Source: a bacterium
GTDB lineage: Bacteria > Acidobacteriota > Thermoanaerobaculia > Multivoradales > JAHEKO01
Length of the DNA: 64,000 bases
NCBI GenBank assembly: GCA_024224155.1
Contig: JAAENP010000149.1
Span: 1 to 64,000, forward strand
Reading direction: 5' to 3'
In this document: one piece after another, positions 52,311 through 57,499 of the stretch
How the letters are laid out: each line of letters starts with the position of its first letter
Numbering within the stretch: position 1 is the stretch's first letter
Notes under the pieces: generated by a model
Told to the model about the DNA's origin: nothing
The model's database searches: none
What the model saw: the letters and a program-made list of their open reading frames with translations, nothing else
Made by a program: the position numbers and the translations under genes

Positions 52311-54356
52311 TCAGGCGGCAGCCTCCGACTCTGAGGCGTTCTCGCCTTCGATCGCGCGGGTCAGCAGATCCACGATGTCCACCACCTCGATTATCCCTTC
52401 ATTGCCTGAGGTTTTGACCGCATCTCGATACATGGTTAGATCTTTTGGGCACGAAACGACGAAGTACTCGATGTTGCCGAGTGCAAGAGCTTCGCGGATA
52501 CGGTTCTCGCTCGGACGTTCAGCGACGTCCTCGTGGTCTTTCATCCAGATCCGGCCGCCGCCGGCGCCGCAGCAGAACGAGTTCTCGCGGTTGCGCGGCA
52601 TCTCGACGAGGTCTACGCCGCTGGCCCGGATGACGTCACGAGGCGCGTCGAATCCGCGGTTGTAGCGTCCGAGGTAGCACGGATCATGGTAGGTCGCTCG
52701 ACCGCCGAGCTTCGCTTTGATCGGCAGTCGGCCGGCTGCGAGGAGCTCGACGAGAAGGGTCGAGTAGTGTACGACCTCATACCGGCTGGCACCGGCGTAG
52801 GGACCGTACTCGTTCTTGAGGGCGTTGAACGTATGCGGATCGGTGGTGAAGATCTTGTCGAACTCACACTCGGCGAGAAGCTTGGCGTTCTGCTCCGCAA
52901 GCGCATCGAACAGGCCTTCCTCGCCGACCCTGCGAATGTCGTTCCCGGCCGAGTGCTCGCCTTCGTAGAGGATGCCGAAGTCGACCTCGGCTTCATGGAG
53001 GACGTTCGCCACCGCCATGCTGACCTCCTGCGACTGGGGATCGAACGAAGCGAAATCGCCGACGAACCAGAGGTACTCGACGGCCTGTTTGCGAGCGTCG
53101 GGAATCTTGAAGTCGAGCTTCCTGGACCAGCGGGCGCGTTTGCGTGCCGAATCACCGAACGAGTTGCCCTTTTCGTCCAGGTTTCTCAGAACCTCGGCGA
53201 CCTCGTCGGCCATCTTGCCCTCGAACACCATACCGCGGCGCATCTCGATCAAGTCCATCATCGGTTCGTTGCCTACCGGGCAGACTTCGACACACGCGTA
53301 GCAGCTGGTGCAAGACCAGACTGCGTCTTGAGTGATGGCAAATTCGAGGAGCTTGGGCGCGTCGCCGTTGGCGGACGCCAACTGGGCTGCGTGCTCGTTG
53401 GCGTAGTAGCGCTTGTTGATCTCGAGCGCCGCCGGCGACAGCGGCGTTCCGGATGCGTGTGCCGGGCAGGCGTCCTGGCAGCGGTTGCACATGATGCAGG
53501 CGTAGCTGTCGAGGAGCTGGGTCCAAGGGAGATCGGTGAGGGCCTCGGCGCCGGGCTGGGAGGAGTTCAAGACGCCCGCGAGCTCGCCTCGCGGCGTCCG
53601 TTTGGCGAGCGCCAGGTTGACCGGAGCGACCATGAGATGAAGGTGCTTCGAGCGCGGGAAATACGGCAGGAAAAGCACGATCAGGCCCATCGCCATCCAC
53701 CAGCAGATGTGGATGGCGATCTCGAGCGCGTCCGCCGAGAATCCCCTGAAGGGAATCGACACCAGGCTCGCCGTCGGCAGCCAGGCGTCGCCGTGGCCTC
53801 GCTCGGCGAGGTGGAGCGCGGTACCGACCCAGCGCGAGCCGACGTGAAGGAGGATGAAAGCACCCACGATCAAAGAGTCGGTTCGGACGCCGCCCGTGGT
53901 GACCTTGGGGTGGAGCTTGACCGATGCGTTGAATGTGAGTGATTTGGGCTTCTGAACGAAGCGCCGCAAGAGCAGCATCAGCATGCCGGTCAAGACCAGC
54001 ACGCTGAAGAGATCCGAGAAGAGATTAAACGCACTCGCGATCGGTCCGGCGCCGATTGTCGACCAGTCCTCGACAAAGGCCTCCAAGATGTCGTTGATGT
54101 TGACCAGGAGATAGAAGCTGAAGCCGAAGAAGATGAAGGCGTGGAAGAGACTCACCCAGGGGCGCGCCTTGAACACCGGCTTCTGCAGTCCGACGTCGAT
54201 GAGCGCCCGGATGAAACGGCCGATGAGATTATCCGAGCGGTCGGCCGGCCCGCCGCGGCGAACGATCCGGACAATGTTCCGAAAACCTGTGAAAGCCAGT
54301 GCGCCGCAAACCAGAACCAGCAAGACGAAAGCGATGCGCTCAGGAGTCGTCAGCAT
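52311..54356 (-). CDS. Membrane Fe-S ETF:quinone oxidoreductase-like protein (NarI-HdrD fusion, EMO-type)
   Basis: A 681-residue fusion. Residues 1-250 are a NarI-like cytochrome b with about six helices and conserved histidines (VSLFHAFIF, AIHICWWMAMG). Residues 290-370 hold two 4Fe-4S motifs, CIMCNRCQDACPAHASG and CTSCYACVEVCPVGNEP. The rest has CCG domains (HDPCYLGRYN, FCCGAGGGRIWM). Such proteins adjacent to etfBA pass electrons from ETF to menaquinone. It follows etfA by 13 bp. Confidence 0.85.
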   Translation of the reverse strand: MLTTPERIAFVLLVLVCGALAFTGFRNIVRIVRRGGPADRSDNLIGRFIRALIDVGLQKPVFKARPWVSLFHAFIFFGFSFYLLVNINDILEAFVEDWSTIGAGPIASAFNLFSDLFSVLVLTGMLMLLLRRFVQKPKSLTFNASVKLHPKVTTGGVRTDSLIVGAFILLHVGSRWVGTALHLAERGHGDAWLPTASLVSIPFRGFSADALEIAIHICWWMAMGLIVLFLPYFPRSKHLHLMVAPVNLALAKRTPRGELAGVLNSSQPGAEALTDLPWTQLLDSYACIMCNRCQDACPAHASGTPLSPAALEINKRYYANEHAAQLASANGDAPKLLEFAITQDAVWSCTSCYACVEVCPVGNEPMMDLIEMRRGMVFEGKMADEVAEVLRNLDEKGNSFGDSARKRARWSRKLDFKIPDARKQAVEYLWFVGDFASFDPQSQEVSMAVANVLHEAEVDFGILYEGEHSAGNDIRRVGEEGLFDALAEQNAKLLAECEFDKIFTTDPHTFNALKNEYGPYAGASRYEVVHYSTLLVELLAAGRLPIKAKLGGRATYHDPCYLGRYNRGFDAPRDVIRASGVDLVEMPRNRENSFCCGAGGGRIWMKDHEDVAERPSENRIREALALGNIEYFVVSCPKDLTMYRDAVKTSGNEGIIEVVDIVDLLTRAIEGENASESEAAA

Positions 54357-54369
54357 CTCGAACCGGGGC

Positions 54370-56078: not shown

Positions 56079-56176
56079 CAGGTGCTTTCTCCTTGGTTGA
56101 CGCTAGTGGCCATCGCGCAGAGGGCTTCCAACGCAGGCCGCTTCGGTTTTCCAAACCTGGATCAATGTGTGGAGCG

Positions 56177-57499
56177 TTACTCCATGCATTGGTCGAGAAT
56201 TTCTATGATGTCCAGCACTTCCAGTTTGCCATCGTTGTCGGTCGACTTGACCGCGTCTTCGAAGCGCGAGACCTCGTAGGGGCAACAGACCGCGAGCACC
56301 TCGGCGCCGACCTGGACGGCCTCTTTGACCCGGTTTTCCGACAGTCTCTCGATCTGGTGCTCGCCGGCGAAGCCGTCGAGCCACATGCCGCCGCCACCGC
56401 CGCCGCAGCAGTAGCCCTGCTGCTTGCAGCGGTACATCTCGCTGAACTCGAGCCCCGGAACCGCCTGGAGCAGTCGGCGAGGTGCGTCGTACTCACCGTT
56501 GTGGCGCCCCAGATAGCAGGGGTCGTGGAAGGTGACCTTTTTTTCGAATGGTCGGGTCAACAAGGGCGTCAGCTTGTCCAGATTTTGAGCCAGGAACTGG
56601 CTGTAGTGCTCGACCGGGAACTCGCTACCCCCGTTCAACGTCGGATACTCGTTCTTGATCGCGTTGTAGGCGTGGGGTCCACTGGCTACGATTTTGCCGA
56701 ATTCGTATTTTTCGAACTGTTCGATGTTGTGCCGGGCAACGTCTTCGAACAGTCCCGGTTCGCCCGCGAGGCGCTGGGAATCGCCGTCGCAGCGCTCGTC
56801 GACGCCGAGGATGCCGAAATCAACGTCCAGTCGCGAAAAGACACGGGCCATGGCCTGCGCGGCGTCGACGCCGCGATCGTGGTAGGCGTAGTAATCGCCG
56901 ACGAACCAGAGTACGTCGACTGGTTGGGTGTCCTTAGGCAGGATACGAACTTCGACTCCCGCGCCCCGGGTCCATTTGACTCTCTTACGCGCCGATTGAC
57001 CCATCGGGTTGCCGTACTCGGAGACGTTCTGAAACATCTCGACCAGCTCGTCGGGCGCATTGCCGTCGAGGACGGCTACCGCCCTTGCCGCGGGCATGAT
57101 CTGAACCATGTCGACTTCCTTCGGGCAGACCCGCACACAGTTCTGGCAGCTCGTGCAGAGCCACATGTCCTGGTGGTTGAAGAGGTCGACGCCGGTCTGG
57201 AGCCGCCGGAAGATCTTGCGCGGGCCGTAGTCGCCGCCGGCGTTGTCGACCGGACAGGCTGGAATGCACTGGGCGCACTGATAACACCAACCCATCGACT
57301 CGGCGCCGTGGATGGCTGTCAACTTGTCCATGTAGGTCAAGTCGTAGCTCATGATCTCGCGGGCGTCGAACATCTTGTTCCACGAACCGGAGATGTCGAC
57401 GCCTTCCAGAACGACACCGTCCTTTTGGACGAAGGCCTCTGATCTCTTGCGTGCGGCCGGCGCGGTCAGCGGTACAAAGCGCGATTTGGTTTCGGTCAT
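56177..57499 (-). CDS. sHdrC2-sHdrB2-like fusion (HdrD-type Fe-S protein)
   Basis: A 440-residue protein with an HdrC part (CYQCAQCIPACPVDNAGG and CTSCQNCVRVCPKEVDM, residues 72-140) joined to an HdrB part with two CCG domains (HDPCYLGRHN, YCCGGGGGGMWLD, VCCPYEVSRFED). In known sHdr loci the order is C1-B1-A-hyp-C2-B2; here C2 and B2 are one gene at the expected place. It probably forms the second Fe-S arm of the sHdr complex. The start overlaps hyp by 4 bp. Confidence 0.85.
   Translation of the reverse strand: MTETKSRFVPLTAPAARKRSEAFVQKDGVVLEGVDISGSWNKMFDAREIMSYDLTYMDKLTAIHGAESMGWCYQCAQCIPACPVDNAGGDYGPRKIFRRLQTGVDLFNHQDMWLCTSCQNCVRVCPKEVDMVQIMPAARAVAVLDGNAPDELVEMFQNVSEYGNPMGQSARKRVKWTRGAGVEVRILPKDTQPVDVLWFVGDYYAYHDRGVDAAQAMARVFSRLDVDFGILGVDERCDGDSQRLAGEPGLFEDVARHNIEQFEKYEFGKIVASGPHAYNAIKNEYPTLNGGSEFPVEHYSQFLAQNLDKLTPLLTRPFEKKVTFHDPCYLGRHNGEYDAPRRLLQAVPGLEFSEMYRCKQQGYCCGGGGGGMWLDGFAGEHQIERLSENRVKEAVQVGAEVLAVCCPYEVSRFEDAVKSTDNDGKLEVLDIIEILDQCME

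Follow-up and report, generated by a model that had tools for sequence, protein, structure and literature searches.

The locus examined here raises the question of how electrons leave the sHdr sulfur-oxidation system, and in particular whether an ETF encoded in the same operon could carry them to menaquinone. The window, that is, the whole stretch of 64,000 nucleotides analysed (contig JAAENP010000149.1, positions 1 to 64,000), belongs to a Thermoanaerobaculia (Acidobacteriota) MAG and contains a minus-strand operon in the order sHdrC1, B1, A, H, B3, etfB, etfA, membrane Fe-S protein, regulator and lipoate-assembly genes. A reading made from the sequence alone had placed etfB-etfA between a C2B2-like gene and a gene for a membrane Fe-S protein, with a 98-bp gap before etfB, and had proposed a flavin route from sHdr through ETF to menaquinone. 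All four ORFs, on the minus strand, and the gap were confirmed, and the features of the operon are as follows.

61681..62136, minus: LbpA, a GcvH-like lipoate-binding protein
60585..61307, minus: sHdrC1, a 2[4Fe-4S] protein
59367..60575, minus: sHdrB1, a CCG protein, the proposed catalytic subunit (PMC11582611)
58297..59367, minus: sHdrA, a FAD/Fe-S protein
57496..58275, minus: sHdrH, a hypothetical core protein of 259 aa, predicted all-helical
56177..57499, minus: sHdrB3 (C2B2-like), 440 aa, with 2[4Fe-4S] and CCG domains, degenerate D1 ligands and Glu at the last D2 Cys
56079..56176, minus: the 98-bp spacer between B3 and etfB, covered by promoter, terminator and RNA-fold scans
55335..56078, minus: etfB, 247 aa, Pfam ETF, without the DGDTxQVG motif of bifurcating EtfB
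54370..55335, minus: etfA, 321 aa, Pfam ETF and ETF_alpha, with an intact alpha-FAD site and the sHdr-group signature QVGKSG plus GAPEHxEGM
52311..54356, minus: an EMO/EtfD-like membrane Fe-S protein linked to sHdr, 681 aa
51761..52246, minus: a MarR/ArsR-like regulator, which follows the EMO gene directly
45763..51764, minus: the LbpA maturation block, with an LplA-like protein, a second LbpA, LipS1 (49254-50261, minus), an extra radical SAM protein, a further LplA-like protein and LipS2 (45763-46917, minus)

NCBIfam assigns the extra radical SAM protein (48100-49206), the third in the lipoate-assembly block, to neither LipS1 nor LipS2. For sHdrH, the AlphaFold2 model is confident and all-helical (pLDDT 87), and the fold search gave no significant PDB match.

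The layout itself is a known one. Type II sHdr has been defined by the presence of shdrC1B1AHB3 together with etfAB in one syntenic cluster (PMC11582611), and we found at this locus both that gene set and a single B3 gene in the place of separate C2 and B2 genes, the 440-aa product of which combines the 2[4Fe-4S] and CCG domains. A Sulfobacillus hdr cluster II with etfAB alongside a longer 6-TM CCG protein was described in 2014 (PMC4378227), the Group III sHdr contains EtfBA (PMC6067878), a cluster of this kind in Thermomicrobium roseum (trd_0160-0142) is 45-fold up in starvation (PMC6776052), and a transfer of electrons via ETF to the respiratory chain was proposed in 2019 (PMC6776052). Since these papers already describe the layout or the ETF route, the locus is the published type II arrangement in a new host taxon; what is new here is the affinity of the ETF and of the CCG domains to a TMADH module, the mosaic nature of the membrane protein, and its loss of the D1 ligands together with an Asp at D2.

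Among 80 loci with relatives of the membrane protein, all 43 copies with at least 49% identity belong to sHdr clusters or sit at the edge of a contig, and the order B3>etfB>etfA>EMO is kept in 35 loci from many phyla, including Chloroflexota, Thermomicrobiota, Acidobacteriota, Fidelibacterota, SAR324, Armatimonadota, Chlorobiota and Myxococcota; recurring this often, the arrangement is far from what chance would give. The EMO copies at 41-44% identity (Thermus, Anaerolineae and others) stand alone, and no ETF was found adjacent to them. The closest relative fetched is a Thermoanaerobaculia MAG (Acidobacteriota) whose membrane protein is 88% identical; across 98 related genomes, EMO proteins at 31-38% identity are common in the class, and identity of at least 71% is reached in only five, the host counted. 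An sHdr-type EMO with 63% identity also occurs on a contig recorded under Euryarchaeota archaeon NP112 (L018), through either transfer or a binning error.

Within the operon, B3 and H overlap by ATGA and etfB and etfA by TAATG, and the sequence-only reading had named a separate promoter in the 98-bp gap as a finding that would count against it. In the scan of this strand of the spacer, restricted to sigma-70-type promoters, no promoter-like site was found, nor did we find a terminator-like site or an unusual RNA fold. Because B3 and etfB, moreover, overlap by 1-4 bp in several related lineages (the median gap across loci is 76 bp), sequence layout makes it likely that the two genes are co-transcribed. 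An extra 0.8-1.5 kb lies between B3 and etfB in four loci from SAR324 and Neomarinimicrobiota (L014, L015, L019, L010).

The membrane protein had been read as a union of a cytochrome b domain with HdrD-like clusters, and this description holds. Pfam recognises CCG and 4Fe-4S dicluster domains in it and in B3, as it recognises ETF in EtfB and EtfA; five long helices form the N-terminal part of the AlphaFold2 model (mean pLDDT 91), whose best PDB match is EtfD (9ojn; E 1e-34, TMq 0.86), reported to be an ETF-to-menaquinone electron wire (PMC13083937). The NarI-like five-helix domain, the heme-b His pair, the two cubane clusters and the CCG domains of the EMO/EtfD family are all present. In particular, the heme-b ligands His78/His241 of EtfD (PMC13083937) align with H72/H240, which are kept in all sHdr copies and in nearly all relatives, and all eight cubane cysteines are there. 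A second pair, H171/H216, is common only to the sHdr copies and the Thermus/Chloroflexota EMO, which suggests that these residues could bind a second heme.

Clusters D1 and D2 follow another pattern. At D2, four of the five cysteines and the D2 histidine are kept, with EtfD Cys712 replaced by Asp639; at D1, the ligands of the linear [3Fe-4S] cluster (EtfD Cys503, 538, 581 and 584) are replaced by D434, S469, D506 and T509, and they are missing in all sHdr-linked copies. D1 is likewise replaced in the TMADH-linked copies, three of four of which have Asp at the last D2 Cys. The EtfD authors noted the loss of D1 in FadF and DgcB and argued that electrons enter at D2, while leaving the question of ETF electron entry open (PMC13083937); the D2 histidine is the residue that renders the cluster of EtfD non-catalytic. 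Because FadF and DgcB also lack the D1 ligands, we treat the D1-less form as a subtype and file the protein as EtfD-like, a predicted ETF:menaquinone oxidoreductase, rather than as a canonical EtfD.

The best solved relatives of EtfB and EtfA are the W3A1 TMADH ETF chains 1o94_C and 1o94_D, and in a joint EtfA+EtfB tree the sHdr ETF falls into one group with ETFs of the TMADH type, of haloarchaea and of GMC-oxidoreductase clusters (100/99). The sHdr copies form a branch of their own, which a GMC-oxidoreductase-linked copy joins or enters. The TMADH label is firm, since the Azoarcus cluster concerned (L094) also encodes a product that matches solved TMADH over its full length (1452 bits). In that cluster, on plasmid pAZKH (L094:1640-9397), TMADH, an EMO-like Fe-S protein and ETF stand together, and the EMO-like protein is a candidate quinone acceptor of the TMADH-ETF pathway. 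An Agrobacterium plasmid (L148:1-5155) with the gene order GMC oxidoreductase-EtfB-EtfA-Fe-S protein holds, in the trees, the nearest outside relative of sHdr EtfB and of the CCG half.

The earlier reading had also taken a firm clustering of EtfAB with fatty-acid ETF partners as an outcome that would speak against it; this grouping was rejected (AU p 3.5e-7), as was a clade of the sHdr ETF with the host's own second ETF (AU p 1.7e-5), AU p-values far below 1e-4 being extrapolations. The idea that ETF and EMO are a fatty-acid or general ETF:quinone module merely sited in the sHdr operon can appeal to the same broad families and to the stand-alone EMO and canonical ETF that exist in Acidobacteriota; however, besides the ETF phylogeny, it must face the invariant sHdr synteny in 35 loci, a host genome with another ETF pair (C469) and another EMO-like protein (C519), and the absence of any acyl-CoA dehydrogenase gene among the typed cluster genes, so that we regard it as very improbable. 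The genes around this further ETF pair and EMO-like protein of the host offered no hint of a substrate for either.

A similarly slim chance is given to an ETF that bifurcates or confurcates, splitting sHdr electrons between NAD+/ferredoxin and quinone. HdrA relatives in methanogens do bifurcate, and the motif of sHdr EtfB often shares a Q-x-G-P end with that of bifurcating EtfB; however, the check for a bifurcating-type site proposed with the earlier reading was negative, as the DGDTxQVG motif is absent from the EtfB of this locus and from all 24 of 24 sHdr EtfB, which group neither with FixA nor with the five bifurcating EtfB of solved structure.

The comparison of the membrane protein with known EMO proteins, also suggested earlier, gave a divided answer: residues 1-365 (the NarI-like five-helix domain and 2[4Fe-4S]) side with the stand-alone EMO of Thermus and Chloroflexota, whereas residues 390-672 (the CCG domains) descend from an amine-demethylase/TMADH-linked lineage. 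Identity to the stand-alone EMO is ~0.3-0.6 up to residue ~360 and ~0.3-0.5 after it, and at the same place the TMADH-linked protein goes from ~0.2-0.35 identity to ~0.45-0.6. Among 77 discriminating columns, the segment that ends at residue 365 is EMO-like in 52 of 54, and the one after it resembles the TMADH-linked lineage in 19 of 23; the single-breakpoint fit (residue 365-389) was matched by 0 of 100,000 shuffles, a post hoc test, as are the others on the mosaic, of a breakpoint read off the same data.

The trees agree with this division. For residues 1-365, the sHdr copies and the stand-alone EMO fall on one side of a branch (100/100), and the AU test rejected an sHdr+TMADH grouping and, weakly, a stand-alone EMO clade without the sHdr copies (p 0.023); the latter result points to the stand-alone EMO as donor of the membrane half. 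For residues 390-672, with the signature columns removed, the sHdr, TMADH, haloarchaeal and GMC-linked sequences group at 100/99.8, on outgroups that are only a handful of plasmid-borne rows, four of them TMADH-linked; thus EtfA, EtfB and the CCG part all lie on the TMADH side of a supported branch. An sHdr+EMO grouping of these residues was rejected (AU), the AU p-values for the two parts being extrapolations far below 1e-4. The AU test of the whole soluble half, which straddles the breakpoint, gave p 0.078 with B3 included, and a clade of sHdr and stand-alone EMO was rejected at p 5e-4 without B3 and the long rows. The very distant outgroups FeS2 and the C536 protein were dropped from the rebuilt soluble-half tree owing to long-branch joins.

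B3 belongs to the same family. The similarity between the C2B2 protein and the membrane protein's soluble half, claimed from the CTSC, HDPCYLG and CCG motifs, is borne out by the presence of all three in both proteins and by 39% identity over 330 aa (E 2e-76). In the tree, B3 joins the set of sHdr EMO and TMADH-linked proteins (100/99.8), and a single clade of sHdr EMO and B3 was neither recovered nor rejected (AU p 0.074); B3 may be a C2-B2 fusion or an offshoot of the EMO family, and a search of plasmids, viral contigs and 297 genomes from a different phylum turned up no type I sHdrC2/B2 sequences. Its D1 ligands are degenerate, the D2 histidine is kept, and Glu replaces the last D2 Cys in 11 of 11 rows. 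Because B3 is a homologue of the EMO CCG half within an ETF-docking family and retains the D2 histidine, we infer that it acts as an Fe-S relay rather than as a second active site.

On this evidence, the operon segment is probably the part of a type II sHdr sulfur-oxidation operon through which electrons are exported, with ETF as the shuttle to menaquinone. In the proposed sequence of events, in which we infer the direction of electron flow throughout, sHdrC1-B1-A(-H) would oxidise LbpA/TusA-bound sulfane sulfur, as in the published pathway; the electrons would exit through the Fe-S relay B3 as the presumed donor site of ETF; EtfAB would pick them up as a plain, non-bifurcating shuttle; and the EMO-type protein would take them from ETF, presumably at D2, and pass them from this noncubane cluster via the two cubane clusters and heme b to menaquinone, from where they would reach oxygen. 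The host genome contains MqnA/MqnD-type (menaquinone) genes and COX1-type oxidases; aprA was not found in it. The suggested route from sHdr through ETF to menaquinone is thus the best reading, given the synteny of 35 loci, the EtfD fold, the conserved heme-b His and these host genes.

Since B3 is a close homologue of the EMO soluble half, ETF would dock twice on the same kind of CCG surface. It is possible to hypothesize, tentatively and from homology, that ETF is reduced on the CCG face of B3 and oxidised on that of EMO; ETF could instead dock on sHdrA. We advance with similar reserve the combined hypothesis that the ETF and the CCG half, with B3, came from an amine-demethylase-like module and were welded at ~365-389 to a Thermus/Chloroflexota-type EMO membrane half, so that one ETF would be reduced on B3 and oxidised on the D1-less, carboxylate-D2 CCG of EMO.

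A different exit has to be weighed at the other side of the lipoate-assembly genes, where a TusA gene is followed by two genes, one for a TmcC/HmcE-like membrane protein and the other for a DsrK/TmcB-like Fe-S protein (41867-44056, the pair at 41867-43780). This is a second, split NarI-HdrD-type pair near sHdr, and it could be another quinone route; electrons could also pass from sHdrA to NAD+. If they left sHdr mainly as NADH or through this TusA-linked DsrMK/TmcBC-like pair, ETF-EMO would work for a different donor, for example a thiol or amine dehydrogenase. The pair beside TusA in the window, and a similar set inside the L016 cluster, speak for that explanation; however, the pair is near only ~2 sHdr loci and ETF-EMO is present in all loci with enough flank, and we consider it unlikely, if less so than the two preceding alternatives. 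Also near the sulfur cluster are a rhodanese and a metallo-beta-lactamase-fold, Blh/persulfide dioxygenase-like protein (39145-40392, plus strand), and a gene that by eye is sigma factor-like (44231-45061, plus) separates the TusA block from the lipoate-assembly genes and is read in the opposite direction.

The export of electrons through ETF and menaquinone gives the exit from sHdr a concrete, testable path in type II clusters. The D1-less EMO with Asp for Cys is a natural variant for locating the electron entry from ETF in EtfD-type enzymes, and the mosaic indicates that the quinone-reducing half and the ETF-docking half are exchangeable as modules.

Compared with known systems, the locus shares with other type II sHdr clusters the core shdrC1-B1-A-H-B3 together with etfAB, LbpA, TusA and DsrE, and the Sulfobacillus cluster also has a 6-TM CCG protein beside etfAB; the locus differs in its Thermoanaerobaculia host, and the mosaic origin of EMO and the losses of cluster ligands are not described in the type II papers cited. 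The M. smegmatis EtfD (9ojn) has the same fold, five helices, heme-b His pair, cubane clusters and CCG domains, but the sHdr protein lacks the D1 ligands, has Asp for the last D2 Cys and carries the extra His 171/216. FadF and DgcB (DUF3483) resemble it in missing the D1 cysteines (PMC13083937); different from it, they keep the last D2 Cys, and the soluble-half tree places the rows from Firmicutes and DUF3483 outside the group that unites sHdr and TMADH. The TMADH ETF (1o94), with the membrane Fe-S partner on Azoarcus pAZKH, has a sister ETF, the same CCG signature and a co-clustered ETF gene, whereas its dehydrogenase is TMADH rather than sHdr and its membrane half comes from another lineage.
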